Program-made: the position numbers and the translations under genes
In this document: positions 1 through 14,119 of the stretch, piece after piece
Layout: each line of letters begins with the position of its first letter
How positions within the stretch are numbered: the stretch's first letter is position 1
Origin: Thermodesulfobacteriota bacterium
GTDB taxonomy: Bacteria > Desulfobacterota > BSN033 > UBA1163
Direction of reading: 5' to 3'
Assembly (NCBI GenBank): GCA_030017685.1
Contig: JASEHH010000004.1
Location: forward strand, 24,695 to 88,384
DNA: 63,690 nt
The notes under the pieces: model-generated
The model's input: the letters and a program-made list of their open reading frames with translations, nothing else
Told to the model about the DNA's origin: nothing
Databases searched by the model: none

Positions 1-480
1 GACAGAACTGGTTGGTAATGTTCACAAAATGCTGGAAGGGTTTCGGGCAGCTCATAGGGAGATGGCTGCTAACCTAAGAGTGAGCCTTGAAAAAGGGGAA
101 ACCGAAAGGCTTAAAGAGTTTAAGAGTATGTGGACAGAACTGGTTGGTAATGTTCACAAAATGCTGGAAGGGTTTCGGGCAGCTCATGAGGAAATGGCAG
201 CCAATCTTAGGGCAAGTCTTGCAAAAGGAGAAACAGAGCGGCTCAAAGAGTTCAAGCCTTGGTGGGATGCTATTGAAAAGGAAGTGGCTGAGCTCCTAGA
301 GAAGTTTACAAAAGAGCATGCGGCTATGGCAGAGGAACTAAAAAAAGCCCTTGCAAAAGGAGAAACAGAGCGGCTCAAAGAGTTCAAGCCTTGGTGGAGT
401 AATATTGAGAAAGAGATACGTGATCTCTTGGAAGCCTTCAAGACTGAAAGAGAAAAGATGGCGGCTAATTGGCAAGCTCT
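1..480 (+). repeat. 132-bp tandem coding repeats
   Basis: Bases 1-28 are identical to bases 133-160, and the unit starting at 29 is nearly identical to the one starting at 161. The units starting at 293 and 425 are more diverged. The period is exactly 132 bp (44 codons), so copy number can change without shifting the frame. The near-identity of the left units points to recent duplication. Confidence 0.9.
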
Positions 481-622
481 AACTGCTACTATGGCCAAGA
501 AAAGAAGCGGCACCCCTGTGGTTTCAGCCGGCGCAGAAGTGAAGACCGTTGACGAGGCAGTAGCCGAGAAGGGAAGAGGCAAGAAAGAAGCAGGAAAAAC
601 AAAGGCAAGAGAAAGTAACTAA
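2..622 (+). CDS. GvpC-like repeat protein, 5' end outside window
   Basis: The reading frame is already open at base 2, so the gene begins upstream of the window. The visible protein is built from 44-residue units that start at bases 29, 161, 293 and 425 (the last is partial). Each unit is charged, helical and carries the core KGETERLKEFK followed by a Trp-containing segment. A basic, low-complexity tail of about 45 residues ends the protein. GvpC proteins, which clamp the outside of gas vesicles, are also made of amphipathic helical repeats (33 residues in cyanobacteria), and the gene lies at the head of a gas-vesicle cluster, so GvpC-like is the best reading. The 44-residue period is not the classical one. 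A different surface or structural protein is possible. Confidence 0.6.
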   Translation, partial: TELVGNVHKMLEGFRAAHREMAANLRVSLEKGETERLKEFKSMWTELVGNVHKMLEGFRAAHEEMAANLRASLAKGETERLKEFKPWWDAIEKEVAELLEKFTKEHAAMAEELKKALAKGETERLKEFKPWWSNIEKEIRDLLEAFKTEREKMAANWQALTATMAKKRSGTPVVSAGAEVKTVDEAVAEKGRGKKEAGKTKARESN

Positions 623-833: not shown

Positions 834-1163
834 ATGAGCGAAACAACATGCGCCTTCTGTAAGGGCAAAGGTAAAGATCCCTTTGAGCTACTCTCCAAGC
901 TTGCTAACTGTCAGGTATGTGGAGGCAAAGGTAAGGTCGAGGTTATAGAGCCAGCGATCAAATGTGCCTTTTGTAAAGGCACAGGTATCTATCCTCGTGA
1001 TGGCCGCGTTACATGTACCGTATGCAATGGTAAAGGTATGGTTACCGTGAAAGGTGAAACCGAAGGGTGTCCTAAATGTAAAGGCAGTGGGCAAGAAATA
1101 GAGAGTGGCCTGCCTTGTATTAAATGTGGGGGCAAAGGGGTAACCACAAAGGCACGGAAGTGA
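834..1163 (+). CDS. Protein of six DnaJ-type CxxCxGxG zinc motifs, copy 1
   Basis: This 109-residue protein consists almost entirely of CxxCxGxG motifs starting at Cys6, 26, 44, 61, 79 and 95. In DnaJ (Hsp40) four such motifs bind two zinc ions and help hold unfolded clients. Here there are six, enough for three zinc sites, and no J domain or C-terminal substrate domain. The last codons and the stop come from a dispersed ACGGAG-type repeat that begins near 1142. A paralogue with the same six-motif plan lies at 3353-3745. A GvpF/L protein carrying a J domain is encoded at 10059, so the two DnaJ halves may work together as separate chains. That cooperation is inference; the zinc motifs are directly visible. 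Confidence 0.8.
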   Translation: MSETTCAFCKGKGKDPFELLSKLANCQVCGGKGKVEVIEPAIKCAFCKGTGIYPRDGRVTCTVCNGKGMVTVKGETEGCPKCKGSGQEIESGLPCIKCGGKGVTTKARK

Positions 1164-1216
1164 CCACGGAGACACGGAGCTCCGTGCTCTCTATGAATTC
1201 CGTGATTCCGTGGTTG
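1142..1216. repeat. ACCACGGAGNCACGG dispersed repeat, imperfect palindrome
   Basis: The sequence reads as repeated 'cacggag' words, then its reverse complement ('ttccgtgattccgtggtt'). Related sequence flanks the GxxExxY gene at about 14083-14119 and 14517-14601. This copy supplies the stop codon of the gene before it. Confidence 0.75.
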
Positions 1217-1237
1217 CAAAGGGGTGGTTTTAAAGAG

Positions 1238-1531
1238 ATGACTAAACTAAACCCCGCACTACCAGAAAGCTCCGTCTGTAAAGATGGGGATGAACGAAGA
1301 AAATTCCTGAAGGGTAGTGCCCCCAAAGCCACGGATGTAAACCCGTGGTGCGGGGTAAATTCCTCCAGAGAATACTTTATTAAAAAGAGGAAGCAAGCGT
1401 TGACTAAAATTAATTCCTTCAGAGAAAACTTTAGAAAGAAGGAGAAGGAGATGAAGGCAGATTTAGAAGAGACAAGAAGGATCTGGAGGGGATTAAGCGA
1501 AAGATTCAAATGGTGGGGCTCGTTGCCCTGA
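1238..1531 (+). CDS. Small basic ORF with an internal palindromic insertion
   Basis: An open frame of 97 residues lies just before gvpN. The ATG at 1238 has only a weak ribosome site, and the longer open frame upstream of it is repeat DNA. The protein holds an internal duplication: the segment from 1238 (MTKL...) and the segment from 1396 (LTKINSFRENF) derive from the same sequence, but the first is interrupted by a palindromic element at 1251-1356. The C-terminal 40 residues are charged and helical. Function is unknown. A shorter gene starting at the TTG near 1396 is possible, and it may not be expressed at all. Confidence 0.4.
   Translation: MTKLNPALPESSVCKDGDERRKFLKGSAPKATDVNPWCGVNSSREYFIKKRKQALTKINSFRENFRKKEKEMKADLEETRRIWRGLSERFKWWGSLP
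1251..1356. repeat. CCCCG palindromic element inside an ORF
   Basis: The outer arms ACCCCGCAC (1251-1259) and GTGCGGGGT (1348-1356) are perfect complements. The element belongs to the family also seen at 5521, 15953, 18773, 19122 and 47092. It keeps the surrounding ORF open. Confidence 0.8.
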
Positions 1532-1554
1532 AATTAAAAGGGAGGTGAATCAAA

Positions 1555-2529
1555 ATGATTGATGAGATGACTACAGTCCTTGAGCCAAGTCCTCTGCCAG
1601 ACTTTGTGGAGACGAAATATATAAAGGATATTACTAACAGAACCCTTTCTTATATTAAGGCAGGTTTCCCGGTTCATTTCAGGGGGCCCTCAGGTACTGG
1701 CAAGACGACTCTGGCAATGCATATCGCAAGTAAGATTAATAGGCCGGTGGTAATGATTCACGGAGACGAGGAATTTACAACCTCTGACTTAGTTGGTGGA
1801 GAATACGGCTACAGATTTAAAAAGGTGGTTGACCGCTTTGTATCCCGTGTGCTCAAGGTAGAAGAGGATATGATTAAACGTTGGGTTGATAACCGTCTGA
1901 CCGTTGCCTGTAAATTCGGATTTACTCTCATCTATGATGAATTTACGCGATCAAGGCCAGAGGCGAATAACATACTTCTTTCTATTTTACAGGAGAAGAT
2001 AATGGATTTACCAGTAGGAAGGGGCGGCGAAGAGCCGTATTTAAGGGTCGCTCCAGATTTTACTGCTATCTTTACCTCTAACCCCGAAGAATATGCGGGA
2101 GTCCATAGAAGCCAGGATGCCTTGAGGGACAGGATGATAACGATGGATCTGGACCATTTTGACTATGATACAGAGGTGGCAATAACGAAGGCAAAATCCA
2201 AACTGTCACAAAAAGACGCCGAGAAAATAGTCAATATTGTAAGGGGCTTAAGAGAATCTGGAAAGTGTGAGTTTGCTCCGACCGTTCGCGGCTGCATAAT
2301 GATTGCAAAAACGCTTAAAGTTCAGAATATGCCTCCTTCTAACTCAGATGGGTTTCTAAAGGTGTGTCAGGATATCCTGGCATCTGAGACAAGCCGAGTT
2401 GGCTCAAAAACGAATCAAGCCAGGGTAAAAGAATTGGTTAAAGAGCTTGTAGGGAAAAAACTCGGAAAGAAAGAGACCGTTGAGGTAGAGAAGGAACCTG
2501 AAAAGGAAGCTGCTGTAGGTGCAGCTTAA
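1555..2529 (+). CDS. gvpN: Gas vesicle ATPase GvpN
   Basis: This is a 324-residue MoxR/CbbQ-type AAA+ ATPase and matches GvpN in length and layout. Walker A is GPSGTGKT at residues 44-51 and Walker B is LIYDE with Asp128 and Glu129. A sensor-like TSNPEEYAG segment follows, and the tail is rich in Glu and Lys. GvpN is a conserved gas-vesicle assembly factor, thought to use ATP during growth of the shell. The start has a good GGGAGGT ribosome site at about 1542. It lies between a doubtful small ORF and an AbrB-like gene, all co-directional. Confidence 0.93.
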   Translation: MIDEMTTVLEPSPLPDFVETKYIKDITNRTLSYIKAGFPVHFRGPSGTGKTTLAMHIASKINRPVVMIHGDEEFTTSDLVGGEYGYRFKKVVDRFVSRVLKVEEDMIKRWVDNRLTVACKFGFTLIYDEFTRSRPEANNILLSILQEKIMDLPVGRGGEEPYLRVAPDFTAIFTSNPEEYAGVHRSQDALRDRMITMDLDHFDYDTEVAITKAKSKLSQKDAEKIVNIVRGLRESGKCEFAPTVRGCIMIAKTLKVQNMPPSNSDGFLKVCQDILASETSRVGSKTNQARVKELVKELVGKKLGKKETVEVEKEPEKEAAVGAA

Positions 2530-2609
2530 AGGCCAGTAGGAAAGTCCAGCCGGCATAGAAAGATTAACGACGAAAAAGTCTATCCTTAATTAGGAAGGAG
2601 GAATTCAAA

Positions 2610-2780
2610 ATGACTCTTATGCGGGCATTTTCTAAGGTAGATAAGGAGGGAAAGATTGCGATTCCCGGCAATATTAAGCGGGAAACAGGCCTTAAAGAAG
2701 GCCAATTGGTTGAACTAAAGATTTTCGGAGCAAATACTAAAAAAAGCGTTCTTATTACAGCAAGAAAAAGTGCAAGATGA
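2610..2780 (+). CDS. Small AbrB/SpoVT-type swapped-hairpin protein
   Basis: This 56-residue gene has a strong ribosome site (AAGGAGG eight bases before ATG). The protein begins FSKVDKEGKIAIPGNIKRE and continues with GLKEGQLVEL, the pattern of the AbrB/MazE swapped-hairpin DNA-binding domain, in which 'D.kGri.iP..ir...gl..G..v.l' is typical. Such proteins act as transition-state regulators or as antitoxins. No toxin gene follows, so a local regulator or DNA architectural role in the gas-vesicle operon is the more likely reading. Confidence 0.75.
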   Translation: MTLMRAFSKVDKEGKIAIPGNIKRETGLKEGQLVELKIFGANTKKSVLITARKSAR

Positions 2781-2805
2781 CACGAAGTGTCATTTCGCTC
2801 TCTGT

Positions 2806-2870
2806 GTCATTCCCGCGAAAGCGGGAATCCAGAGATATTAGTATAGATTCCTGCTTCCGCAGGAATGACG
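2806..2870. repeat. GTCATTCC...GGAATGAC dispersed palindrome
   Basis: A hairpin GTCATTCCCGCGAAAGCGGG and a second hairpin ending in GGAATGAC are separated by an AT-rich spacer. The same family appears at 16333, 35258, 42230, 56531 and 58518. The gap from 2781 to 3006 has no other recognisable content. Confidence 0.85.
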
Positions 2871-3006
2871 ATGTAGTATATTTATTTATGAGACAGCACA
2901 CTAGGGGACTCGTAAATTTGGGATTTGGTTATTGGTGATTGTTTTTTAACCATTGGTAATTGGAGCTTATTTGGTGTTTGGTTATTGGTGGTTTGGAGGT
3001 GGAGGG

Positions 3007-3333
3007 ATGCCAAGAGGTGTAAGTGATATCAGTGGTCTTCGAAATATCAGGAGCATGCACAGCACAAGCCAGCGCTCTATACCCAAAAATCAAAGCTCGG
3101 CCTATTTAGATTTGTATATGCTCCGGAAGGAAAAGGAACGGTTAGAGAAAGAAGATGCCAATCTGGAAAAGCGAAAGGCAGGGATTCAAAAAAGATTAGA
3201 AGATATAAAGAAAGAAATGGAGGTATTGGAAAGCTCAGCCCAGCAGGAAATGGGATGGCAAGCGGGGCAAAGAGAGGTTGTGAAGGAAGAAACTCAAAAA
3301 AAGAAATGGAAGAAGATGGGATTGAGTTACTGA
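3007..3333 (+). CDS. Small coiled-coil protein of the gas vesicle cluster
   Basis: This encodes a 108-residue protein. The start at 3007 follows a GGAGG-type site; the open frame extends upstream to 2953, but those codons come from low-complexity AT-rich DNA. The first 40 residues are Ser/Arg-rich. From about residue 50 a charged heptad-like segment (LRKEKERLEKEDANLEKR) predicts a coiled coil, followed by a Lys-rich tail. By size, position after gvpN and the coiled coil it might be the protein called GvpV in other bacteria, but I cannot verify this. Confidence 0.6.
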   Translation: MPRGVSDISGLRNIRSMHSTSQRSIPKNQSSAYLDLYMLRKEKERLEKEDANLEKRKAGIQKRLEDIKKEMEVLESSAQQEMGWQAGQREVVKEETQKKKWKKMGLSY

Positions 3334-3352
3334 ATCAAAGGAGAAGTGAATT

Positions 3353-3745
3353 ATGGAAATGGCATGGAAGGCGTATCAGTGGGGAGGCGGCAAGATAAAG
3401 AGAATGGGTGAGATTCTAAAAGGTGAGATATTCGAATGTGCCTTTTGTAGAGGAAGTGGATTTTTAGCTGGGTCTAAAGGGATCAAATGCCCTGTTTGTA
3501 AAGGAGAAGGGGCTGTGAGTATTGAGGCCCCTGCTGTGCTCTGTGCCTTTTGTAATGGAAGGGGAAAGGCATATCCGAGAACAAATATTACCTGCCCTGC
3601 ATGTTTTGGTAAAGGCGTTATGAGTGCAGGCAGTGAAGATATTGAAACATGCCCTATCTGTAAAGGGGGAGGCAGAGAAAAAGGTAGTAATCTTCCTTGC
3701 TTAAAATGTAGGGGTAAAGGCGTTGTTATAACAGGGTCTACTTGA
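3353..3745 (+). CDS. Protein of six DnaJ-type CxxCxGxG zinc motifs, copy 2
   Basis: This is the 130-residue paralogue of the gene at 834. After a 28-residue N-terminal extension, CxxCxGxG motifs start at Cys29, 46, 64, 81, 100 and 116, and the spacing pattern matches copy 1. No J domain, membrane segment or DNA-binding motif is present. The start is supported by AAAGGAGA at 3339. The pair flanks gvpN and the AbrB-like gene. The likely role is a zinc-stabilised, chaperone-type binding module for gas-vesicle proteins, by analogy with the cysteine-rich domain of DnaJ. The client is unknown. Confidence 0.8.
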   Translation: MEMAWKAYQWGGGKIKRMGEILKGEIFECAFCRGSGFLAGSKGIKCPVCKGEGAVSIEAPAVLCAFCNGRGKAYPRTNITCPACFGKGVMSAGSEDIETCPICKGGGREKGSNLPCLKCRGKGVVITGST

Positions 3746-3764
3746 AATGGAAGAAAGATAAAAA

Positions 3765-4037
3765 ATGCCAACACCAGATGAAATTAAAATCTTTAAAATG
3801 ATCGACGCTGAAGGTGGTGAATCCACTATAGGAAAAATTGCTAGGAAAATGCATCTGGACACGAGTTACGCCAGAGTTATCCTTAATTCTATGGGACTGA
3901 AGGACCTTATAGATGTTTTTAGAACTGGGAAGGTCAGAATTGCAAGTAAAGGTTGGATAGCATTAGGGAAACAGCCCCAGCGTGGAGAAGGCCTACAAAG
4001 ATATTTAGAAGATCGAGACAAATGGAAAATTTTTTGA
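3765..4037 (+). CDS. Putative winged-helix protein, 90 aa
   Basis: The protein starts MPTPDEIKIFKMIDAEGGES and goes on IGKIARKMHLDTSYARVILNSMG, which reads as a helix-turn-helix/winged-helix fold of the type used in small regulators. A short basic wing-like stretch (RTGKVRIASKGW) follows. No catalytic motif is visible. It sits 19 bp after the second zinc protein in the same transcription unit. A regulator of the locus is plausible; protein-protein binding cannot be excluded. Confidence 0.6.
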   Translation: MPTPDEIKIFKMIDAEGGESTIGKIARKMHLDTSYARVILNSMGLKDLIDVFRTGKVRIASKGWIALGKQPQRGEGLQRYLEDRDKWKIF

Positions 4038-4070
4038 AGATAACATTAGAATCTGAAAGGAGGACAAACG

Positions 4071-4256
4071 ATGAGACTTAATTGTTTATCATGTGGTTAT
4101 GCGGTTGATTTGGATAATGCTTATGGGGACTATGACGGTCAGTTCAAATGTGTTATTTGTGGCGCAGTTATTAATATCAAGACCGAGGAGGGCAAACTTA
4201 AGTCGGCTAGTGTTGCCAAAGCTGGACAACGCCCCTCGGAGAAAAGAGCATTTTGA
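4071..4256 (+). CDS. Small zinc-ribbon protein, 61 aa
   Basis: Two CxxC knuckles (CLSC at residue 5 and CVIC at about residue 28) form a one-zinc ribbon, followed by a basic tail. The ribosome site AAAGGAGG lies just before the ATG. The function is not known. It is one of four small Cys-rich proteins in the cluster, in addition to the two CxxCxGxG proteins and the gene at 16501. Confidence 0.65.
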   Translation: MRLNCLSCGYAVDLDNAYGDYDGQFKCVICGAVINIKTEEGKLKSASVAKAGQRPSEKRAF

Positions 4257-4401
4257 GTAGAGACTAAACCACCGGGGCGGCCAGACGGATTGCAAAGATA
4301 TTCAGAAGAAAGACAAGGTTGTATTGGGTTCTTTACACCCTCATCTTGCAGGATAACTGTAAAGGGTAAGAGCAGGGTAAAGTAAGAAGGGAGATTAGCA
4401 G

Positions 4402-4941
4402 ATGGCAAAAGAAAAACCAAAGGGGGAAAAGGAAGAAGAGGGCTTAGATATTGATTTTGGGATAGGTAAGTTAAGCCTGGGGGGATTATTTAAAGGCATT
4501 GAGAAATTGATTGACCTGGCAGCAGAATTAAAGGACTCTGGCGGCGAACTCAAGAAAGAGGGAGAGATCGATCTGGGTCATTTAAAAGAGGGCATGAAAG
4601 GCGTTTTCGGTTTCTCCATAAAGACGGCAGTAGGTGGAAAACCAATCGTGGAACCTTTTGGTAACATTAAGAAGACCCCTAAAGGACCTACCGTCGAGGA
4701 AGAGAGAGAACCGATGACAGATGTTTTTGATGAAAAAGAGGAGATTCGTATCTATTCCGAGATGCCGGGAGTCAATGAAGAGGATATAAAGATAGATATA
4801 AAAGGAGATATATTGAATATTTCGGCCCATGGCGTAGAGAGGAAGTATCATAAAGAGATCCTCCTTCCCGTACAGGTCAAGAAGGAAGCCCTTTCTTATA
4901 CTTACAAGAATGGTATCCTGGAAATCAGGATTAAAAAATAG
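4402..4941 (+). CDS. gvpH: Gas vesicle protein GvpH, Hsp20-like
   Basis: This 179-residue protein has a Lys/Glu-rich head, a Gly-rich middle and a C-terminal alpha-crystallin-like domain from about residue 105 (PMTDVFDEKEEIRIYSEMPG, ending in NGILEIRIKK). GvpH proteins have this plan and behave as small heat-shock-type chaperones or regulators in gas-vesicle formation. The 'PGV.eEDIkIdi' and 'NGiLei' elements are the conserved Hsp20 signatures. The gap that follows to 5311 separates it from the ArsA-type gene. A second Hsp20-domain protein is encoded at 9185. Confidence 0.85.
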   Translation: MAKEKPKGEKEEEGLDIDFGIGKLSLGGLFKGIEKLIDLAAELKDSGGELKKEGEIDLGHLKEGMKGVFGFSIKTAVGGKPIVEPFGNIKKTPKGPTVEEEREPMTDVFDEKEEIRIYSEMPGVNEEDIKIDIKGDILNISAHGVERKYHKEILLPVQVKKEALSYTYKNGILEIRIKK

Positions 4942-5029
4942 ATGCGTAGATGAGTGAATGCCGGACTTATTAACTAATTTTTCATGACGGGTATGACACC
5001 CTCGAACCATGAAAATTGATTTATCTACC

Positions 5030-5086
5030 GTAGGGGCGGCCCTCTGTGGCCGCCTTATTGAGGAGCCCACAGAGGGGCTCCCCTAC
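5030..5086. repeat. GTAGGGGC...CCCCTAC inverted repeat in a gene-free gap
   Basis: This is a hairpin-rich element between gvpH and the ArsA-type gene, similar to those at 658 and 17102. The remainder of the gap (4942-5310) is AT-rich and has scattered 'ctgaa..ttcag' palindromes around 5160-5265. I see no gene; a 62-codon minus-strand frame there lacks a ribosome site. Confidence 0.7.
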
Positions 5087-5310
5087 ATTTGGGAATGAAG
5101 AACCTATTTTCTGAGCAATATAAACGCATTAAATAAAATAATTGTAAATAAACAAAATAGATGCTGAAACAATACTGAAACAAGTTCAGCACAAGGTTCA
5201 GCATGACAAAAACAAAGCAGATCGTCATTCGATCCTGAACTTAATTCAGGATGTTTCGGAATCTCAGGTCTTTCAAAACGATGTAAAAACATTAATTGTG
5301 TTTGGGTTAA

Positions 5311-6387
5311 ATGGGATTAATCGGATTAAGAGAAGGCGCGTTGAAACTGATTTTATTCGGCGGAAAAGGAGGGGTGGGAAAGACTACCTGTGCCTCAAGT
5401 ACTGGACTGTATTTAGCAAATAACAATAAAAATGCACTCCTCATCTCCACTGACCCGGCCCATTCTTTATCGGATAGCTTAGGGCAGAAAATAGGAGATG
5501 AGATTCACCCCGTTATATGTTTACCCCGCCCCGCAGAAAGCCCCGTGATTTATCACGGGGATGAATGCTGTAAATCCGGGGGGACCCCAATGCCCCGCGT
5601 TTTAACGCGGGGTCGGGGTTTACTGTCTAACGGGGTAAAGCAGATAGAAGGTGTAGATAAATTAAGTGCTATAGAGATAAGCGCGGAGAAGGCATTATCA
5701 AGGTTCAAAATAGAATATGACGATGAGCTAAGGAGACTCTTTGATACGAGTACTTATTTAGACAGGGAGGATATAGATTCCATACTTGCTCTGCCTATAC
5801 CGGGGATAGACGAGGTGATGGGATTTAAGACCATTGTGGACTTCATTGAAGAGGGGAAGTTTGATAAATACATAGTCGATACAGCACCAACAGGCCATGC
5901 CCTGAGGCTTTTGACCCTCCCGGAGCTTTTAGACGACTGGATAAAAGTTATGGCAAAGATGAGATGGAAATATAGATATATGGTTACGAGCTTTGCCGGA
6001 AAATATAAGCCTGACAGTGCTGATGATTTTCTTATGAGCATGAAAAAGACAGTTAAAAAGATTGAAGGTCTTCTCAGGGATCAAAGCAGGTGTGAATTCA
6101 TTATCGTGACCATACCAGAAGATATGGCGATTAAAGAGACGGAAAGGATGATAAAAAGTTTGGATCAATATGGGATGAAGGTAAAACAGATGGTCATCAA
6201 TCATGTTATCCCGGAGCAGGTTGACTGCCCTTTTTGTCAGGGAAGGAGAGAAGAGCAGGATGAATATATAGGACAGATAAGAGAAAAATTTAGCGATTTA
6301 AAAATAACGATTGTTCTCCTCCAGCCCCATGAGATAAAAGGGATAGATGCCTTGAAAAATCTCGGGAGTATGGTCTTTGCGGCATGA
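5311..6387 (+). CDS. ArsA/Get3-family ATPase with an in-frame repeat insertion
   Basis: The protein has a deviant Walker A (GGKGGVGKT, residues 17-25), the switch I-type STDPAHSLSDS, the switch II-type DTAPTGH and a late CPFC motif (Cys306/Cys309). Those are marks of the ArsA/Get3 (TRC40) family, and the CxxC is the zinc-dimer motif of Get3. Get3 carries hydrophobic tail-anchored proteins; ArsA drives arsenite export, but no arsB or arsD is near. Residues about 71-109 match no family segment and are encoded by a palindromic element at 5521-5638. The TTG at 5341 after AGAAGG is an alternative start. Its place between gvpH and the CDC48-type gene suggests chaperone work on gas-vesicle proteins. 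Confidence 0.85.
   Translation: MGLIGLREGALKLILFGGKGGVGKTTCASSTGLYLANNNKNALLISTDPAHSLSDSLGQKIGDEIHPVICLPRPAESPVIYHGDECCKSGGTPMPRVLTRGRGLLSNGVKQIEGVDKLSAIEISAEKALSRFKIEYDDELRRLFDTSTYLDREDIDSILALPIPGIDEVMGFKTIVDFIEEGKFDKYIVDTAPTGHALRLLTLPELLDDWIKVMAKMRWKYRYMVTSFAGKYKPDSADDFLMSMKKTVKKIEGLLRDQSRCEFIIVTIPEDMAIKETERMIKSLDQYGMKVKQMVINHVIPEQVDCPFCQGRREEQDEYIGQIREKFSDLKITIVLLQPHEIKGIDALKNLGSMVFAA
5521..5638. repeat. CCCCG palindromic element within the ArsA/Get3 gene
   Basis: The element runs from TTACCCCG (5521-5528) to CGGGGTAA (5631-5638) and contains further hairpins (GCCCCGTGATTTATCACGGGG; CCCCGCGTTTTAACGCGGGG). The right end, TCTAACGGGGTAAA, matches the intergenic copies at 18773 and 47092. It adds about 39 residues (Pro, Gly, Arg and Cys-rich) without a stop or frameshift. 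Confidence 0.85.
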
Positions 6388-6428
6388 GTTATGGACAAGG
6401 GTGCGGCTAAAGCCTAAAGACATTTTCA

Positions 6429-8579
6429 ATGAAAAAAGACAACACAACCCTGACATTAAAAGTAAAAGAAGCCTTGCCAAAAGATGTTGGCAGAGCTATT
6501 GCGAGGATAGATCCTAAAGATATGGAAAGCATGGGGATAGAAGTAGGTGAAATTGTATTAATTGAAGGAAAGAGAAAAACCCCTGCTAAAGCCATGCCAT
6601 TATTTTTGGAAGACAGAGGCAAAGGAGTTGTCCAGATAGACGGGATTTCGAGAGAAAATGCACAGATAGGGTTAGATGAAAAGGTAATCATTCAAAAAAC
6701 TTCGCAAAGGCCTGCAAGCAAGATCACTCTATCCCCGATCACTTCGGTCGGCTCATTCGAGAAGGAGAAAGATGTTAAGTACATCGGTTCGTTAATGGAA
6801 GGCCTTCCCCTTACGGTTGGAGACAAGGTGAGGGCTGCCCTTTTTGGGGCCAGATCTTGCGATTTCAAGGTACTGGATACAAGGCCAGAAGGCATCGTCG
6901 TCATCGAACCGACCACCCTGATCCGGATGGAGATCAAAGGAACAAAAGAGACCAAAGAGGCGCGGGTCTCTTATGAAGATATCGGCGGACTCCAAACCCA
7001 GATACAGCGGATCAGAGAGATGATCGAGTTGCCTCTCAAATACCCGGAGGTGTTTAGGAGGTTAGGGGTTGACGCCCCGAAAGGAGTATTTTTATATGGT
7101 CCTCCGGGTTGCGGGAAGACCTTGATTGCCCGTGCTGTTGCCAATGAAACAGAGGCATATTTCACCCACATCAGCGGCCCTGAGATCATGGGTAAATTTT
7201 ATGGAGAGAGTGAAGCCCGCCTGAGAAGTGTATTTGAAGATGCACAAAAACATGCCCCAGCGATCATCTTTATTGATGAGATAGATTCTATCGCTCCCAA
7301 AAGAGAAGAAATGGGCGGAGAAAAGCAGGTTGAACGAAGGGTAGTCGCCCAGCTTTTGGCTCTCATGGACGGATTGGAATCAAGGGGCGATATTATCGTG
7401 ATCGCTGCAACCAATATTCCTAATACCATCGATCCTGCATTGAGACGCCCCGGACGCTTTGACAGGGAGATAGCTATACCCATACCCAACAGAAATGGAA
7501 GACTTCAGATACTTCAGATCTATACAAGGGGAATGCCCCTTGCAGAAGATGTAGGTATCGAAAAGTTAGCCGATATTACCCATGGATTTGTGGGTGCAGA
7601 TATAGAGGCATTAGCAAGAGAGGCTGCAATGTCGGCTTTAAGAAAGATCCTGCCTAAGATTGATTTTGAGCTGGCGGATATCCCTTATGAAACGCTCATG
7701 GAGCTTCAAGTCACTATGGATAATTTTTTAGAGGCGATGACGGAGGTAGAACCCTCCGCGATAAGGGAGTTTTTTGTGGAGGTCCCTGATGTGAAATGGG
7801 AGGATGTGGGAGGATTGGAGAATATGAAGAGAGAGCTGATAGAGGCAATTGAATGGCCCCTTAAATATCCTGAACTTTTCAAAAAGGCCAATACCCAACC
7901 ACCCAAAGGGATATTGCTTCATGGAGCGCCGGGTACAGGAAAGACCCTATTAGCAAAGGCAGTTGCTAATGAGAGTGGAGTTAATTTTATCTCGGTCAAA
8001 GGGCCGAGCCTGATATCAAAGTATGTTGGAGAGAGTGAAAGGGGTATCCGGGAGGTTTTTAAAAAGGCAAAACAAGCGTCACCAACCATATTATTCTTTG
8101 ACGAAATAGACAGCCTGGTTCCTAAAAGAGGTGCAAGCAGCACCGATGCTCATGTGACAGAAAGGGTGATAAGCCAATTTCTAACAGAGATGGATGGTAT
8201 AGAGGAATTAAAAGGAGTGGTCGTCTTAGCTGCAACCAACAGATTAGATTTAGTTGACCCGGCAATTCTTAGAAGCGGTAGGTTTGACCTTTTATTTGAA
8301 CTTCCTATACCTGATGAAGAGACAAGGCTTTCGATATTTAAAATTCATACCAGGAATAAACCCCTTCATAAAGATGTGGACTTGAAGACATTAGCTAAGA
8401 AGACAAATGGAATGGCGGGGTCAGATATACAATTACTCTGCCAGAAGGCTTCAATGAATGCCATCCGTAAGTTTGTCAAAGGGAAGAAAGACACGGCAAA
8501 TGCCCGGTCTATGGAACTGTTCATAACCGGTGATGATTTTGAAGCGGCCTTGAAATCAATTCAATCTGAAAGGCCCTGA
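6429..8579 (+). CDS. CDC48/p97/VAT-type double AAA+ ATPase
   Basis: This 716-residue protein starts with a double-psi barrel N-domain typical of CDC48/VAT (residues 5-95, '[12 protein letters not shown]', '[10 protein letters not shown]'). Two AAA modules follow. The first has Walker A GPPGCGKT at 224-231 and Walker B Asp283/Glu284; the second has Walker A GAPGTGKT at 499-506 and Walker B Asp558/Glu559. Arg-finger regions [10 protein letters not shown] and [10 protein letters not shown] are present. The family unfolds or segregates protein complexes with ATP and is best known in archaea and eukaryotes. Next to two Hsp20-type genes and gvpN it probably remodels gas-vesicle precursors. That role is inference. 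Confidence 0.92.
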
Positions 8580-8580
8580 G

Positions 8581-9201
8581 ATGAGAAGACTGAAATACAT
8601 CCCCATCATCCATACCGGGGTTGAGATGGGATCGATGTATGGGACATTGAAAGCCGAGTATATTAAAAGATACGGCAAAAAAAAATGGGAAGAACATAAC
8701 AGAGTCATAGAAGATTTCTGGCAAGGGATTCGTAAAAAGGTCTTTGAATTAGGTTTGGATTACCAAAATACTCGATTGTATCAAGATGGACTGCCTGTAT
8801 GCGGAAAGGAGCTCGATTTAGTTCAAGAATTGGTCAAGATGGGAAGCCGGAACCACCAAATCCTTATGGAGCTTATCCAGTTAGGGACAAAATTAGAAGG
8901 GACAGAGGATCCAAAACTGCTTTTGGAAGAATATGCCTATTTAAAAAATGCATCTGCTGATTTGGACAAACCAAAAGTGAAAAGGAGATATCAACAGTTA
9001 GCAAAAAGCATCCTGCAGAAGAGAGATTCGTATATCAGCCAGCGAATTGACAAAACTTTACGGGAAGGTGAGACGGGGCTACTCTTCATCGGAATTACTC
9101 ACAGGGTGAATGAAAAATTACCTAAAGATATCGAAATAGAATACGTCATATATCGGCTTCCTTTCAAAGAAGGCTTGTTTCCGGATGAAAAAGAAAGTTA
9201 A
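8581..9201 (+). CDS. Unrecognised 206-aa protein linked to the CDC48 gene
   Basis: The start codon lies one base after the CDC48 stop (TGAgATG), so the two are translationally linked. The N-terminus (RRLKYIPIIHTGVEMGSM) and the segment GLLFIGITH at residues 166-174 look like beta-strand and loop elements of an alpha/beta fold; the middle is helical and charged. Asp/His-rich loops (HTGVEMG, GITHRVNE) could bind metal or nucleotide, but I do not recognise a family. Its 3' end overlaps the next gene by 17 bp. A cofactor or substrate adaptor for the CDC48-type ATPase is a reasonable guess. Confidence 0.7.
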   Translation: MRRLKYIPIIHTGVEMGSMYGTLKAEYIKRYGKKKWEEHNRVIEDFWQGIRKKVFELGLDYQNTRLYQDGLPVCGKELDLVQELVKMGSRNHQILMELIQLGTKLEGTEDPKLLLEEYAYLKNASADLDKPKVKRRYQQLAKSILQKRDSYISQRIDKTLREGETGLLFIGITHRVNEKLPKDIEIEYVIYRLPFKEGLFPDEKES

Positions 9202-9673
9202 GGGAATTCATGATATTACTACGTCGCTATACCGGGCAAGAATACCAGAAAACAGAGAGGCTCCCAAAAGGCTCGGACGAGACTCAAAAAAGAGATATTT
9301 CAAAAAAGGTGAAGGGAGCATCAGCGCTCCGAGGGTATGGTCATTTTCAACAAAACCTAAGTTTACCCGATATCAGAAATCGATCGAGAGGAGTTTATTC
9401 GTAGAAAGGATTGAGGAGCCTAAAACGAATGTGCTTGAGAAAACGGACAACTTGGTCATCATGGTTGAGTTACCCGAGGTGAAAAAAGAGGATATTCATT
9501 GGGAAATAAGCAATGATATTTTTTCTGTTCGTTCTCAGGATAAATTCGGTTCAAAGAAATATATGAAAGAGATGCTTTTACCTTTTGTAGCGGAGGAGGA
9601 CGATATTCAAACGAATTATAGGAATGGTATTTTTGAGATTAGTTTTCGCAGAAAAAAGGGTAAAAGGAAATGA
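9185..9673 (+). CDS. Second Hsp20-domain (GvpH-like) protein
   Basis: The first 75 residues are basic and probably disordered. The C-terminal part from about residue 80 is an alpha-crystallin-like domain (NLVIMVELPEVKKEDI, later NGIFEISFRRKKG). It lacks the usual C-terminal IxI tail. The gene starts inside the end of the previous gene and its stop overlaps the ATG of the response regulator, so it is part of a tight operon. It is diverged from the GvpH at 4402, so it is not a recent duplicate. A gas-vesicle-dedicated small heat-shock protein is likely. Confidence 0.75.
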   Translation: MKKKVKGIHDITTSLYRARIPENREAPKRLGRDSKKRYFKKGEGSISAPRVWSFSTKPKFTRYQKSIERSLFVERIEEPKTNVLEKTDNLVIMVELPEVKKEDIHWEISNDIFSVRSQDKFGSKKYMKEMLLPFVAEEDDIQTNYRNGIFEISFRRKKGKRK

Positions 9674-10062
9674 AAAAAACGATTCTCATTGTAGATGATG
9701 AAAAAGAATTATGTAAAATCCTCTCTGATAGTTTATCTCAGAATCACTATCGAGTTTTCGTTGCGTTCGATGGAAAAAGGGCACTCCAGTTAGTAAAAGA
9801 AGAGAAACCTGACCTGATTCTATTGGATATAAAAATGCCGAGGATGAATGGGATAGAGGTGCTTAAAAAAATTAAGAAGATGAAGAAAGAAATCGTTGTG
9901 ATTATGCTCACGGCCTATGGAACCCTTGAAACGGCAAGAAAGGCTATGAAGTTAGGAGCATATGATTACCTCACCAAGCCCTTTGACCTTTTCAATCTCA
10001 AATCTCTTGTGAAAGAGGCTTTAGGGAAGGTGAGCAAACCAATGAAAAAGGGAAAACGATGA
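9670..10062 (+). CDS. Single-domain response regulator (receiver only)
   Basis: This 130-residue receiver domain has the acidic pair Asp9/Asp10, phospho-acceptor Asp53 (LLDIKMP), Thr81 and Lys103 (LTKPFD). There is no output domain. It overlaps the genes on both sides by the ATGA pattern. The likely kinase partner is the PAS histidine kinase at 17201 in the same cluster. A receiver-only protein in a gas-vesicle operon may act by protein contact, for example on GvpF/L or the CDC48-type ATPase, rather than on DNA. Confidence 0.9.
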   Translation: MKKTILIVDDEKELCKILSDSLSQNHYRVFVAFDGKRALQLVKEEKPDLILLDIKMPRMNGIEVLKKIKKMKKEIVVIMLTAYGTLETARKAMKLGAYDYLTKPFDLFNLKSLVKEALGKVSKPMKKGKR

Positions 10063-11087
10063 AAGATGGATGGAAGCACTTATATGGTGTGATAGGAACG
10101 TCCGAAAATTTGAATATCGGTCCGATTAAAGTTGAAAATCAAAGCGGCGAAGTCTATCCGATAATTTATAAAGAATTATCTGCCATTGTCAGCAATACCT
10201 CCTTCGTGGATTACAAGAAAATGACCAAGGACATTGTTGTCCGAGATTTATTGAAACACCAGAAGGTCATTGAGAGTGTGATGGGTTCATATCCCATTAT
10301 TTCATTCAAATTCGGTTCTTTGGCTCATACTGAGGAGGAAGTAACACAAATTCTGATTCGTGGTTATGACCTCTTCAAATTTCTCCTTCCATGGGTGGGC
10401 GAAAGGGTAGAACTTGAGTTGGTAGCAACGTGGGATAGAGAAAAAATATTTAAGGCCCTTTATGAGGAAGAATCGGAGATCCAGTCCCTTCAGAAAAAAA
10501 TTGGAACAAAATCGGAAGAAGACGCCTTCTTGGAAAAGATCAAGTTGGGGGAGTTGGTCCGTCAGTGTCTTCTCAAGAAAAAGGTCTCGTCCAGAAAGCA
10601 GATCCTCTCCCAACTCAGAGAGTGCACTGAGTCTTATTGTGACCATGATGTCATGGATGATATCATGATCCTCAACACAGCCTTCCTTTTGAGAAAGGAG
10701 ATGGAAAAGGAGTTCGACAACCGAGTTCAGTACCTGGATGATGAATTTCTCGGGAAAATCTCTTTCAAAGTCATCGGTCCTCTTCCTCTATACAGTTTCG
10801 GGTGCATCGAAGTGGAATGGACCAGCGTCAGTGAGACTCGTGAGGCCCTTGCCCTTCTCGGTTTGAATGAGAATGCGTCATCAGCCGACGTCAGGAACGC
10901 CTACTATCAAAAGGCAAAGTCCCTTCATCCTGATAAGATGAGAGACCTTTTAAATTCTCCTCCGAAATTTGAAAAGTTGGCCGAGGCCTATAAGTTCCTT
11001 AGGAAGTATTATAACCAGCATCGTTCCTTTCCCAGAGAAGACCGCATCCTCTTGATGGAGGTCAGAACGAATGGTTCAAATTATTGA
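10059..11087 (+). CDS. GvpF/GvpL protein fused to a C-terminal J domain
   Basis: Residues 1-255 are a GvpF/GvpL domain: start 'HLYGVIGT', the central 'KHQKVIESVM.SYPIISFKFGS' and the ending 'FKVIGPLPLYSF'. GvpF/L proteins are accessory nucleation factors that contact GvpA. Residues about 260-318 form a J domain (ALALLGLNENASSADVRNAY, HPD at 290-292, then EAYKFLRKYY). J domains stimulate the ATPase of DnaK/Hsp70. The fusion would place an Hsp70-recruiting module on a gas-vesicle nucleation factor. The other three GvpF/L genes here lack the J domain. It overlaps the response regulator by four bases. Confidence 0.9.
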   Translation: MKDGWKHLYGVIGTSENLNIGPIKVENQSGEVYPIIYKELSAIVSNTSFVDYKKMTKDIVVRDLLKHQKVIESVMGSYPIISFKFGSLAHTEEEVTQILIRGYDLFKFLLPWVGERVELELVATWDREKIFKALYEEESEIQSLQKKIGTKSEEDAFLEKIKLGELVRQCLLKKKVSSRKQILSQLRECTESYCDHDVMDDIMILNTAFLLRKEMEKEFDNRVQYLDDEFLGKISFKVIGPLPLYSFGCIEVEWTSVSETREALALLGLNENASSADVRNAYYQKAKSLHPDKMRDLLNSPPKFEKLAEAYKFLRKYYNQHRSFPREDRILLMEVRTNGSNY

Positions 11088-11138
11088 AGGAAAGAGGATG
11101 AAGAAGGGGGTGGAAAATCATATCGTTATGGTAGATAG

Positions 11139-11372
11139 ATGAGGCTCTTAAAATATCTTCTATTTTTTCTTCTTCTAAATTTTGCTTTGGCAATATACGT
11201 TTCGTATGAATTGACGTGTGAGATTGAATATTATCAAGGAGTTTTAGAAAGGCAAGATAATATAATGCGTCAACACAAGAAGCGTATGATTGAATTAATA
11301 CAAAAATTGGAGGAGATGGAAAATGAAAGATTCCAGATTATCGAACAGAAAGCCAAAGTGCACAATTCTTGA
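11139..11372 (+). CDS. Small signal-anchor membrane protein with coiled coil
   Basis: The 77-residue protein has an N-terminal hydrophobic segment (LLKYLLFFLLLNFALAIYV, residues 3-21) acting as an uncleaved signal anchor. A charged helical region (residues 30-70) resembling a short coiled coil follows. This FtsL/FtsB-like layout does not prove that family. The start lacks a strong ribosome site. It overlaps the next small ORF by 50 bp. It may work with the lytic transglycosylase two genes downstream. Confidence 0.6.
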   Translation: MRLLKYLLFFLLLNFALAIYVSYELTCEIEYYQGVLERQDNIMRQHKKRMIELIQKLEEMENERFQIIEQKAKVHNS

Positions 11373-11556
11373 ATCGTTCGATGGAATGATCAAAGTTATT
11401 GGGCCGAATATTGTTAAGTCAAACCATGCGGAAATGAAGAACGCTTTTGATTTTATTGAAAAATCTTATTGGGAGATTAATATAAGCCACCTACATGGAC
11501 CTCATAGATTAAAACAAAAGGAGGAGAACTACCATGACGGTAATATTAAAGGATGA
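11323..11556 (+). CDS. Small ORF, 77 aa, unknown
   Basis: The start is supported by GGAGGAG eight to twelve bases upstream, inside the 3' end of the previous gene, and the 3' end overlaps the next gene by 23 bp. The sequence has no hydrophobic segment and no recognised motif; the middle (NAFDFIEKSYWEINISHL) could be helical. The double overlap fits translational coupling, but an unexpressed frame cannot be excluded. Confidence 0.45.
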   Translation: MKDSRLSNRKPKCTILESFDGMIKVIGPNIVKSNHAEMKNAFDFIEKSYWEINISHLHGPHRLKQKEENYHDGNIKG

Positions 11557-12187
11557 CCATGAGGAAGCGATTCGAAAAATAAAAAAGAGGTCTTTTAAAA
11601 TTCATATTTTAGGAATATGTTTTACGTTTTTATTATCTCTATTTTTAATGTATGGGAAAGTGATTTTAAAAATAGAGAAGGATTTAGCCAAGCAAAGTTA
11701 TAAAGTAGTTAAAGGCCATGTTATTGATATGAGAGCCAAATTTAAACTATTAGAGATAATAAGGACGAAGCCGATGAGTATTGGCCAGGCATTAGAGGTT
11801 GCAGATGTAGTTTTCGAGGAATCAAAACATCGAGAAATACCAATATCGATGGTTCTGGCTATTATCAATCAAGAATCTTCATATCGAAATAGTGCTGTAA
11901 GTGAGAGAGGTGCGAGAGGATTGATGCAGTTGATGCCGGGAACATGGAATCAATACATGGACGATCCTAAATTGAAAAAGGAGATAGAAAATAGCCATAT
12001 CCCAACGTTAAATATAAGGGCAGGAATGGCTTATCTTGGAGATTTAATAAAAAAGGAAAAGGATTGGAATAAAGTATTGAGCATTTATGTAAGTGGGAAT
12101 AAAGATATTGCGTCAAATCAAGTTTATATTAAACAGGTTTTTAATAAGGCAAAAGAATATAGTGAGGAATTAGACGGGAGGTGGTAG
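11534..12187 (+). CDS. Membrane-anchored lytic transglycosylase (SLT family)
   Basis: A transmembrane segment lies at residues 23-45. From about residue 85 an SLT/goose-lysozyme-type domain follows: AIINQESSYRNS with catalytic Glu114, then GARGLMQLMPGTW, and the later 'NIRAGMAYL'. Such enzymes cleave the murein glycan strand with formation of a 1,6-anhydro end. Gas-vesicle clusters do not need murein cleavage for assembly in the cytoplasm, so its presence is unusual. It might widen the wall for an envelope complex, or be a passenger. After the stop, 12188-12302 shows nothing recognisable. Confidence 0.88.
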   Translation: MTVILKDDHEEAIRKIKKRSFKIHILGICFTFLLSLFLMYGKVILKIEKDLAKQSYKVVKGHVIDMRAKFKLLEIIRTKPMSIGQALEVADVVFEESKHREIPISMVLAIINQESSYRNSAVSERGARGLMQLMPGTWNQYMDDPKLKKEIENSHIPTLNIRAGMAYLGDLIKKEKDWNKVLSIYVSGNKDIASNQVYIKQVFNKAKEYSEELDGRW

Positions 12188-12302
12188 TTGGCGTTTATCA
12201 TGAGAGGATCAAGTTGCTCTCTTCCATATTTCAATTTTACCGGGAGATGTCCTGAGGCAATCGTTTCATGTTAAATCGTGTGGAGCAAGACGAAGGAGTT
12301 TG

Positions 12303-13088
12303 ATGAAAGAAGGCAAATACATTTATTGCATTATCGAAACGAAGATCGAGAGGAACTTTGGCCCCATTGGCATTGGAGGAAGAGGCGATGAGGTGAGCAC
12401 CATTGGTTATGGGGATTTAAGTATGGTGATCAGCAACTCCCCTATGACAAAATATGTTGTCAGCCGAGAGAATTTATTGGCTCATGAAAAGGTTATTGAA
12501 GAGGTCATGAAAGAATTTACCGTTTTGCCGGTTAGATTTTGCACGATCGCTTCCAATGCTGATGAGGTAAGGAACCTTTTAGATAGAAGGTACAGGGAGT
12601 TTAAGAATCTTCTGAGAGATATGGATCATAAAATAGAATTAGGGACAAAAGGATTATGGAAAAATATGGACCTCATCTTCAAGGAGATTATAAAAGAGAA
12701 TCATGAGATTAAAAGGTTAAAAGAGAAGATGCAGAACGATAAGGGAAAAAAGAAATTCTCCTCCATGAAGACATCATTGGAGGCAAAAGTTGAAGTGGGT
12801 AAATTAGTAGAAGAGGCTCTAAAAGAAAAAAAAGATAAAGAAGCAGAGAAAATCGGAGAAACACTAAGAAGAGCAGCCATTGATTATAAACGCAATAAAA
12901 CGATAGGCGATGAAATGTTTATCAATGCTGCCTTTTTAATAGATAGAGGAAGGGAGAAGGAATTTGATAACATCATGGAGGATCTTAGCGAAGAATATAA
13001 AGACAGAATAAAATTTATGTACGCAGGGCCGCTACCGCCTTTTAATTTTGTCAACATCGTCATTTATCCAGAGGAATGGGAAAAGTGA
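12303..13088 (+). CDS. gvpL: Gas vesicle protein GvpF/GvpL, paralogue 2
   Basis: This 261-residue protein carries the family signature: 'GKYIYCII' at the start, 'NLLAHEKVIEEVMKEFTVLP' in the middle, 'INAAFLID' and the C-terminal 'AGPLPPFNFVNI'. GvpF/L proteins are shell-associated nucleation factors. The ATG at 12303 is preceded by GAAGGAG and preferred to the TTG just before it. It is most like the next gene, so the two probably arose by duplication. F and L cannot be told apart with confidence here. Confidence 0.9.
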   Translation: MKEGKYIYCIIETKIERNFGPIGIGGRGDEVSTIGYGDLSMVISNSPMTKYVVSRENLLAHEKVIEEVMKEFTVLPVRFCTIASNADEVRNLLDRRYREFKNLLRDMDHKIELGTKGLWKNMDLIFKEIIKENHEIKRLKEKMQNDKGKKKFSSMKTSLEAKVEVGKLVEEALKEKKDKEAEKIGETLRRAAIDYKRNKTIGDEMFINAAFLIDRGREKEFDNIMEDLSEEYKDRIKFMYAGPLPPFNFVNIVIYPEEWEK

Positions 13089-13096
13089 CTACGGTC

Positions 13097-13852
13097 ATGG
13101 AAGGGAAATACATTTATTGCATCATAGGAGGAAAGGGGAAAGTAGAGCAGTTTGGCCCCATAGGAATTGGCGACAGGAGAGATGAAGTATATACAATATG
13201 CTTTCAAGATATAGGAGCAGTGGTCAGTAATTCTCCGATTAAAAAGTATTCTGTGGCAAGGGAAAATTTAATTCCGCACGAGTGTGCCATTGAAGAAGTG
13301 ATGAAATCTTATACGGTTTTGCCAGTAAGATTTGCCACCATCGCTGAAAATGAAGATAAAGTAAAAAAAATTTTGGAAAAAGACCATGAGAGGTTCATTG
13401 ATTTATTGAAGAATATGGAAGGCAAAAAAGAACTCGGACTTAAAGCAATTTTTAAAGAAGATGTTATATACAAGGATATTTTAGAAAAATATAAAGATAT
13501 AAAGGTATTAAAAGAAAAAATTGCGACATTACCCTCTGAGAAGACATATTTCCAACGTATGGAAATAGGAAAAATGGTTGAGGCTGCTTTAGAAAAAGAG
13601 AAAGAGATTTATAGAGAGGATATCTTGGAGACCCTGTCGCCTTTAGCATTGGAAGTGAAAACCAATAATACCTACGGTGAACGGATGATTATCAATGCCG
13701 CCTTTTTGGTAGAAAGGCATAAAGAGGCAGAGTTTGACCAGAGGGTTCAGGAACTCGGTGAAAAATATGGTGATAAAATGAAATTTAAGTATGTGGGGAC
13801 ATTGCCACCATTTAATTTTGTTAATTTAACAATAAGTGTAGGAGAATACTAA
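13097..13852 (+). CDS. gvpF: Gas vesicle protein GvpF/GvpL, paralogue 3
   Basis: It is a close relative of the preceding protein (GKYIYCIIGGKGK, later ENLIPHECAIEEVMKSYTVL and TLPPFNFVNL). The start at 13097 aligns with the paralogue; an in-frame ATG at 13076 overlaps the previous gene and would add seven residues (MGKVTTV). It is 251 residues with the 13097 start. The gene is followed after three bases by gvpG, an order (gvpF-gvpG) common in gas-vesicle operons. Confidence 0.9.
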   Translation: MEGKYIYCIIGGKGKVEQFGPIGIGDRRDEVYTICFQDIGAVVSNSPIKKYSVARENLIPHECAIEEVMKSYTVLPVRFATIAENEDKVKKILEKDHERFIDLLKNMEGKKELGLKAIFKEDVIYKDILEKYKDIKVLKEKIATLPSEKTYFQRMEIGKMVEAALEKEKEIYREDILETLSPLALEVKTNNTYGERMIINAAFLVERHKEAEFDQRVQELGEKYGDKMKFKYVGTLPPFNFVNLTISVGEY

Positions 13853-13854
13853 AA

Positions 13855-14097
13855 GTGCTTTTAGATGATCTGTTATTACTACCAGTTAAAGGATTTATCG
13901 GTATTTTCAAAAAGGTCCAGGAGATGGCAGAGCGCGAGTTATCCGACGAGGATTATATTCGAGAGAGGCTTATGGAACTACAGTTAAAATTTGAGTTAGA
14001 CGAGATCGGTGAGGAAGAATATATAGATCAGGAAAAAGAACTAATGACACGATTGGATGCTATTAGAAAAGCAACCATGGAGAGCACGGAGAATTAA
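13855..14097 (+). CDS. gvpG: Gas vesicle protein GvpG
   Basis: The 80-residue protein begins 'MLLDDLLLLPVKGFIGIFKKV', the signature of GvpG, and continues as a charged helical segment (DEDYIRERLMELQLKFE). GvpG is a small accessory protein that interacts with GvpF in halophilic archaea. The start codon is GTG with AGGAG at 13841. The 3' end, including the stop, merges into the ACGGAG-type repeat. Confidence 0.92.
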   Translation: MLLDDLLLLPVKGFIGIFKKVQEMAERELSDEDYIRERLMELQLKFELDEIGEEEYIDQEKELMTRLDAIRKATMESTEN

Positions 14098-14119
14098 CAC
14101 GGAGGCACGGAAGTAACCA
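14083..14119. repeat. ACGGAG-type repeat left of the GxxExxY gene
   Basis: The repeated words 'cacggag' and 'cacggaag' overlap the gvpG stop. With 14517-14601 they bracket the GxxExxY gene, and they match 1142-1216. Confidence 0.7.

Follow-up and report, generated by a model that had tools for sequence, protein, structure and literature searches.

An ArsA homologue and a small heat-shock protein of the Hsp20 family were reported in 2010 to be encoded together with gas-vesicle (gvp) genes in several phyla. The authors suggested a part in energising the biogenesis of vesicles and, for Hsp20, a function as a chaperone (PMC2963123; this and the following papers are cited from parts of their text). 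GvpF has been proposed as the first binder and chaperone of GvpA (PMC11445434, PMC9501494), GvpH prevents the aggregation of GvpM and keeps it soluble (PMC6107691), and GvpN and GvpV were suggested as possible chaperones (PMC4982088). At stake is the question of how the very hydrophobic GvpA reaches the vesicle shell without aggregating. Here we analyze a gas-vesicle gene cluster in a 63,690-nt stretch (in the following called the window) of contig JASEHH010000004.1 of a Thermodesulfobacteriota genome (GCA_030017685.1). This cluster probably represents a class of gas-vesicle operon equipped with its own chaperones, which would prevent GvpA/J-type shell proteins from becoming insoluble and pass them on to the shell as it grows.

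Helper genes of the cluster in comparison with described systems

Genes of the gvpA type and for GvpF/L, GvpG, GvpK and GvpN, recognized by family profiles, occur together here and identify a gas-vesicle gene cluster. From position 834 to 17080, the plus strand carries a run of gas-vesicle genes with few others interspersed. An earlier note, made from the DNA letters alone, had singled out positions 834-11087. Open reading frames and family profiles recovered all genes it had named, on the plus strand and where it had placed them: two DnaJ-type zinc proteins, a J domain fused to GvpF/L, two alpha-crystallin-domain proteins, as well as a p97-like unfoldase, a Get3-type ATPase and GvpN, the last three all over their NCBIfam cut-offs. 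However, the gvpH it had counted as an additional gene is the first of the two Hsp20 genes itself (Hsp20a). The cluster extends beyond these positions, with GvpF/L, GvpG, GvpO, GvpK and GvpA-type genes continuing to 17080. With the same profiles, contig positions 1-25300 and window positions 20001-63690 (43.7 kb) yielded no chaperone match, gvpA being the sole match. The genes on which the argument rests are:

834-1163, plus strand: ZnJ1, zinc-only DnaJ-like protein upstream of gvpN (Pfam PF00684, DnaJ_CXXCXGXG, 5.1e-11)
1555-2529, plus strand: GvpN AAA ATPase (TIGR02640, 341.5 bits, cut-off 266.8)
3353-3745, plus strand: ZnJ2, zinc-only DnaJ-like protein downstream of gvpN (PF15777 6.4e-14; PF00684 6.4e-12; ZnJ model 1.8e-24)
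4402-4941, plus strand: Hsp20a, GvpH-like small heat-shock protein (NF041800, 141.9 bits, cut-off 140; Pfam GvpH 20.4, below its cut-off of 22)
5311-6387, plus strand: Get3/ArsA1, single-domain TRC40/GET3/ArsA ATPase (TIGR00345, 276.7 bits, cut-off 135; in-frame insert at ~5505-5636)
6429-8579, plus strand: CDC48/p97-type double-ring AAA ATPase (TIGR01243, 932 bits, cut-off 802.65; CDC48_N, CDC48_2, two AAA domains)
9185-9673, plus strand: Hsp20b, small heat-shock protein (Pfam HSP20 3.3e-6; NF041800 65, below cut-off)
10059-11087, plus strand: GvpF/L with a C-terminal J domain, HPD motif intact (PF06386, GvpL_GvpF, 7.9e-46; PF00226, J domain, 1.3e-10)

ArsA and Hsp20 are already known from gvp operons, with the difference that the gvp-linked ArsA of PMC2963123 has two domains and ~600 amino acids, whereas the window and most of the wide loci described below encode a single domain of Get3 size. 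The CDC48, the J fusion and the zinc proteins are apparently new additions. A term search of the text of PMC2963123 gave no occurrence of CDC48, and the part examined names no J or zinc proteins, at which no search was aimed. Nor was a description of these three parts in gvp operons found in the literature searched, which lay largely outside subscription journals. Cdc48d in PMC6107691 is described there as a purification contaminant, and PMC2405808 and PMC4046663, which mention gas vesicles and DnaJ together, are unrelated as far as their examined parts go. In public annotation, a CDC48 family ATPase stands two genes from gvpH on a Methylosinus plasmid, and an ArsA family ATPase is listed in the gvp cluster of a Nostoc plasmid. 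The gvp cluster on Nostoc plasmid p4 (locus L194, 9801-13584) holds an ArsA of two-domain size and, adjacent to it, an AAA ATPase that the CDC48 profile matches with 672 bits.

Among experimentally studied clusters, that of Serratia 39006 offers gvpH, several gvpF, gvr regulators and gvpN as comparable parts. It differs in that the part of PMC4982088 examined names neither CDC48 nor Get3, and neither a J fusion nor a zinc protein; DnaJ, Hsp20 and ATPase have zero occurrences there. The haloarchaeal systems resemble the window in possessing a GvpH and a GvpF that binds GvpA (PMC6107691, PMC9501494).

Recurrence of the helper genes in gas-vesicle loci

We compared a GvpN alignment led by the window protein with GTDB genomes, which yielded at least 577 relatives, and kept the best 80 loci; the long-locus counts rest on the 48 of these in which 8 kb or more follow gvpN. 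By strict scores, Hsp20 was present in 46 of the 48 long loci, the GvpF/L-J fusion in 45, CDC48 in 41, Get3/ArsA in 39 and ZnJ in 26, and the first four occurred together in 36. By looser tags, Hsp20, single-domain Get3, CDC48 and the GvpF/L-J fusion followed each other consecutively among the annotated genes in this order in 32 of the 48, with median gaps of 5, 19 and 19 nt for the successive pairs found (largest 754, 2480 and 636 nt). This order is often conserved while other gvp genes vary across loci. The set is not peculiar to a single genome.

All four helper types were found in 41 of the 80 loci by loose tags (40 by strict scores), under 15 phylum labels that include Bacteroidota, Chlorobiota, Elusimicrobiota, Nitrospirota, Planctomycetota, Ignavibacteriota, Atribacterota and Zixiibacteriota; nearly all of the carriers are metagenome-assembled genomes (MAGs), and several labels stand for a single MAG each. 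The co-occurrence across genomes that the earlier note had proposed to look for is therefore borne out. Proteins of the window served as seeds for the profiles, which were then rebuilt on these loci. A strict recount of the 80 loci dropped three CDC48, two ArsA and one Hsp20 tags; the order count and the phylum labels rest on the loose tags. Shares among these loci are not shares among all gas-vesicle clusters.

A second, less biased sample covered 395 genomes of the phylum, 33 with GvpF/L over the cut-off (gvp-positive) and 362 without (gvp-negative); the marginal genome G100, below the cut-off, was excluded from the positive group. The regions examined were the window and 40 others, many broken by contig ends, and gvp contigs in G124, G198 (two), G278 and G354 were left out, so that the region-based counts for the phylum are lower bounds. 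Across whole genomes (E ≤ 0.001), the CDC48_N domain was detected in 25 of the 33 gvp-positive versus 16 of the 362 gvp-negative genomes (Fisher test 4e-22, kinship ignored). In 21 of these 25, it lay on the same contig as gvpF/L. It was on a separate contig in G006, G286 and G354, beside Hsp20 with either ArsA or the conserved protein X206 (see the second gene list), which was not the case in G035.

The operon also appears to move between lineages. The sample includes six genomes of the same genus and six others of the same family, and GvpF/L was found in none of them. MAGs that bear the labels of several other phyla contain a GvpN with 83-89% identity. On these two grounds we read the operon as recently transferred, with binning errors in the MAGs as a possible contribution. 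The phylum contains at least two gvp layouts, one with GvpO and the GvpF/L-J fusion, versus one with a two-domain ArsA and no fusion.

Properties of the helper proteins

The CDC48 of the window has the N domain, CDC48_2 and the two AAA rings of a CDC48/p97 protein. Among 70 CDC48 proteins of the family, 69 have two Walker A motifs and 65 have two aromatic pore loops; none carries the C-terminal HbYX motif that indicates proteasome coupling. A quick tree, built under a simple model from 66 of 93 rows after thinning, contains 50 gvp-linked CDC48 proteins and 16 others. The distribution of the two labels on it requires 2 changes, versus 14.6 in shuffles; the tree comes with a long-branch warning that includes the Nostoc and Methylosinus rows. 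The second CDC48 of the window's genome groups with the non-gvp proteins. Because the labels largely separate in the tree, the gvp-linked copies appear to be mostly dedicated to these clusters. The CDC48 proteins of the two layouts in the phylum fall mostly into two separate clades.

HPD is the J-domain motif to which Hsp70 responds. It is intact in 61 of the 64 GvpF/L-J fusions found, and within the cluster a J domain with HPD was detected by PF00226 in this fusion only. DnaK and other J proteins are encoded elsewhere in the window's genome.

The Get3-type ATPase scores over its family cut-off and has the P-loop and switch motifs of Get3/ArsA proteins. Among 46 single-domain ArsA1 proteins, the P-loop and DPAH are present in all and DTAP(T/V)G in 45. 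The CPFC of the window protein aligns with the inter-subunit CxxC of the archaeal structures 3zq6 and 3ug6. With 358 residues, it carries a 44-residue in-frame insert just past switch I that is absent in six aligned relatives. The other listed single-domain relatives have 303-337 residues and therefore little room for such an insert. The inserted DNA (~132 nt) contains palindromes, and one part resembles a repeat near position 19121 in inverted order. Although a search of the genome returned just one other match, a weak one, the insert has the appearance of a small repeat element.

In the GET/TRC pathway, hydrophobic clients are fed by Hsp70 and Hsp40, and CDC48 takes part in clean-up. The window encodes the same kinds of protein, namely a Get3 ATPase, a J protein for Hsp70 and a CDC48. 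It differs in that the presumed client is the shell protein of an organelle, and in that the best sequence match of its Get3 in the Protein Data Bank (PDB) is the algal ArsA1 (5zme), above archaeal Get3.

ZnJ1 and ZnJ2 contain six CxxCxGxG motifs each, as do 53 of 71 members of the family. An alignment of 23 ZnJ sequences shows 12 invariant cysteines, with two in each motif. DnaJ itself has four zinc motifs. We infer from this pattern that ZnJ proteins have three zinc sites. The combination typical of type I DnaJ, a four-motif zinc region and a C-terminal substrate-binding domain in one protein, was not found. Given six motifs per zinc protein, and with no match to a DnaJ C-terminal family reported in either the zinc proteins or the fusion, the "split DnaJ" of the earlier note is rejected in its strict sense and stands as an analogy.

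In the 395 genomes, all 21 ZnJ matches at E ≤ 1e-15 lay on gvp contigs, in 12 gvp-positive genomes. The weaker matches among those listed were mostly open reading frames of ~300-430 residues that align with the later section of the model; we take these to be ordinary DnaJ. The gvp-negative genome G196 held one full-length, weak match (2.8e-10, 150 amino acids), and G053 a short one (79 amino acids). Selenocysteine was considered for two ZnJ2 relatives with an in-frame TGA and rejected, the TGA being an ordinary stop.

The AlphaFold2 model of ZnJ1 has a predicted local distance difference test score (pLDDT) of 90.9. Its top Foldseek hit in the PDB is Arabidopsis BSD2 (6ekb), a weak match (E 8.5e-3, TM score by query 0.26), followed by DnaJ zinc domains and anti-TRAP. 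BSD2 is a zinc-only assembly chaperone of the Rubisco large subunit. Like BSD2 (PDB 6ekb, 8ilb), ZnJ appears to be a DnaJ-type zinc module without J or C-terminal domain; it differs in its six motifs and 12 cysteines.

Proposed function of the helper set and alternative explanations

Directly observed are the genes themselves, their domain architecture, the intact catalytic motifs, an order that recurs and the linkage to gvp across many phyla; from these we infer a joint function of the set in folding. In such a line, the GvpF/L part of the fusion protein would bind nascent GvpA, while its J domain would recruit the cell's ordinary DnaK. Hsp20 and the six-motif zinc proteins may hold exposed hydrophobic segments, and the Get3-type ATPase could shield the client and hand it over with ATP. 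CDC48 would unfold or strip misassembled subunits without feeding them to the proteasome. The clients, the order of hand-over, the recruitment of DnaK and the part of CDC48 are all predicted.

Several observations weigh against this explanation. The 80 loci lean toward the cluster type of the window, because they were chosen by likeness to its GvpN. In the 33 gvp-positive genomes, which were chosen by GvpF/L, counts are lower, in part through broken contigs and the gvp contigs left out: Hsp20 in 24, CDC48 in 20, ArsA in 15 (the two-domain form in 14), ZnJ in 12 and the GvpF/L-J fusion in 9. The gvp cluster of Spartinivicinus carries none of the set, and a profile search of the Halobacterium pNRC200 cluster gave a weak Hsp20 match and no J domain, CDC48, Get3 or zinc protein. 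In an E. coli study, binding of GvpF to GvpA was seen only in the absence of GvpG or of all other Gvps (PMC11445434), and deletion of gvpH still permits vesicles in Serratia and Halobacterium (PMC4982088). Within the window, X206, Hsp20b and a response regulator separate CDC48 from the J fusion, and the gap between Hsp20a and Get3 is 369 nt. CxxCxxR is found in only 29 of the 46 ArsA1 proteins, the insert may impair the window's Get3, and a further ArsA-family pair is encoded on another contig of its genome. Finally, three J fusions lack HPD (loci L132, L134 and L145, all Chloroflexota). These stand directly after GvpN, and no CDC48 or ArsA was seen in their loci. HPD is missing from three of the eight fusions in loci without CDC48 versus none of the 56 with it (Fisher test 0.0013). 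This might reflect a natural uncoupling of the chaperone line; it is a hint only, because the three cases are all from Chloroflexota, two of the loci are shorter than 9 kb, and they are not independent.

Taken together with an older gvpH insertion study, in which vesicle production was much reduced (PMC4982088), and with the Serratia cluster in E. coli, where deleting any of several genes including gvpH reduced or eliminated the ultrasound signal (PMC10344784), these data bear on how far the set is needed. Since the Halobacterium cluster lacks most of it, loss of gvpH is tolerated and the E. coli deletions cut the signal, it is more likely that the set improves efficiency or robustness than that it is needed in every case. 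The complete folding and delivery path of the earlier note is partly supported by the recurrence, the order, the gvp linkage and the literature on GvpF and GvpH; "complete" overstates it.

A more far-reaching version, which we put forward tentatively, is that of a horizontally moving organelle operon with its own GET-like relay, a Get3 pathway that ends at a protein-only shell and not at a membrane. Here, GvpF/L-J would call DnaK, the protein with three putative zinc sites and Hsp20 would hold the client, Get3 would hand it over, and CDC48 would proofread the shell.

The main rival is turnover, which we regard as unlikely. The set would then dismantle or recycle finished, collapsed or defective vesicles, CDC48 stripping GvpA and Hsp20, the zinc proteins and DnaK keeping the subunits soluble. 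CDC48 is a segregase by family, and pore loops in both rings combined with the absence of HbYX fit an extraction without the proteasome; the lack of a CDC48 match in the Halobacterium cluster also agrees with turnover. Yet the genes are placed among those for the assembly proteins GvpN, GvpF/L, GvpG and GvpO, mostly with small gaps, and the J domain has been joined to a member of the GvpF/L family, in which GvpF is a reported early partner of GvpA; both points argue against turnover.

That the zinc proteins act on a regulator in the manner of anti-TRAP, with Get3 and CDC48 gating operon expression or vesicle number, is improbable. ZnJ1 and ZnJ2 do score over the cut-off of 32 with the Pfam Anti-TRAP family (PF15777, 36.1 and 52.1), local alignments of ZnJ1 with anti-TRAP structures give 50-54% identity across ~30 residues, and response regulators and kinases flank the cluster (one recognized by PF00072, others by eye). 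However, both proteins stay below the cut-off of 65 of the NCBIfam anti-TRAP family (RtpA, 42.0 and 53.1), the top whole-length fold match of ZnJ1, weak as it is, is a zinc-only chaperone, and the J fusion and Hsp20 are left unexplained. Hitch-hiking, in which transfer alone holds together a mobile operon without joint function, accords with the apparent horizontal movement but is more improbable still in view of the intact catalytic motifs, the domain fusion and the order that is often kept as other gvp genes vary.

If the chaperone-equipped operon is the correct explanation, bacterial Get3 and CDC48 proteins gain a likely client, and a folding line reserved for the sticky shell proteins of gas vesicles may so far have escaped notice. 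Heterologous gas-vesicle clusters serve as acoustic reporters and often fail in new hosts; of 15 gvp clusters tested in E. coli, five were named as giving detectable vesicles (PMC10344784). The recurrent chaperone set offers named, deletable parts, including the J fusion and a gvp-linked zinc family.

Other genes and signals in the cluster

The remaining genes listed for the cluster are:

29-622, plus strand: GvpC-like repeat protein (by eye; 132-nt internal repeats; no Pfam match over cut-off)
3765-4037, plus strand: small protein, winged-helix-turn-helix-like by eye (without a match in Pfam or NCBIfam; some other gvp loci contain relatives)
4071-4256, plus strand: Zn61, small zinc-ribbon-like protein (PF21344 0.0066, weak, below cut-off; recurs in gvp clusters of the phylum)
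8581-9201, plus strand: X206, conserved protein recurring in gvp clusters (TraB/PrgY/gumN 0.0023, weak, below cut-off; AlphaFold2 pLDDT 86.4)
9670-10062, plus strand: response-regulator receiver domain protein (PF00072 1.3e-34)
11534-12187, plus strand: lytic transglycosylase (SLT) within the cluster (PF01464 3.2e-21)
12300-13088, plus strand: GvpF/L (PF06386 6.5e-64)
13076-13852, plus strand: GvpF/L (PF06386 4.9e-67, genome search)
13855-14097, plus strand: GvpG (PF05120 3.8e-20)
14610-14879, plus strand: GvpO (PF05800 2.1e-18)
14894-15691, plus strand: GvpF/L (PF06386 6.1e-57)
15695-16318, plus strand: GvpA/J-type domain fused to GvpK in one protein (PF00741 5.5e-13; PF05121 4.1e-28)
16778-17080, plus strand: GvpA/J-type protein (PF00741 7.5e-17)

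Outside the window, a gvpA-type gene starts ~1.75 kb upstream (contig region L005:17542-17748), and further GvpC-like repeat proteins, recognized by eye, also lie just upstream. On both sides, at 12547-17093 in L005 and at 17201-18763 in the window, genes for response regulators, kinases and an activator of the NtrC type were recognized by eye. Matches to sigma-54 sites were at or below chance level; one sigma-54-like site with a single mismatch lies ~160 bp upstream of gvpA (L005:17368-17382). Promoter-like sites of the sigma-70 type were about as frequent as expected by chance (37 versus 38.1), and we therefore claim no operon boundaries.

A fold search with X206 gave no significant match in the PDB. 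The protein recurs in 18 of the 33 gvp-positive genomes of the phylum and in 16 of the 80 wide loci. The SLT gene occupies the same position in locus L110, and SLT proteins are encoded in the gvp regions of 6 of the 33 genomes, the window's included.

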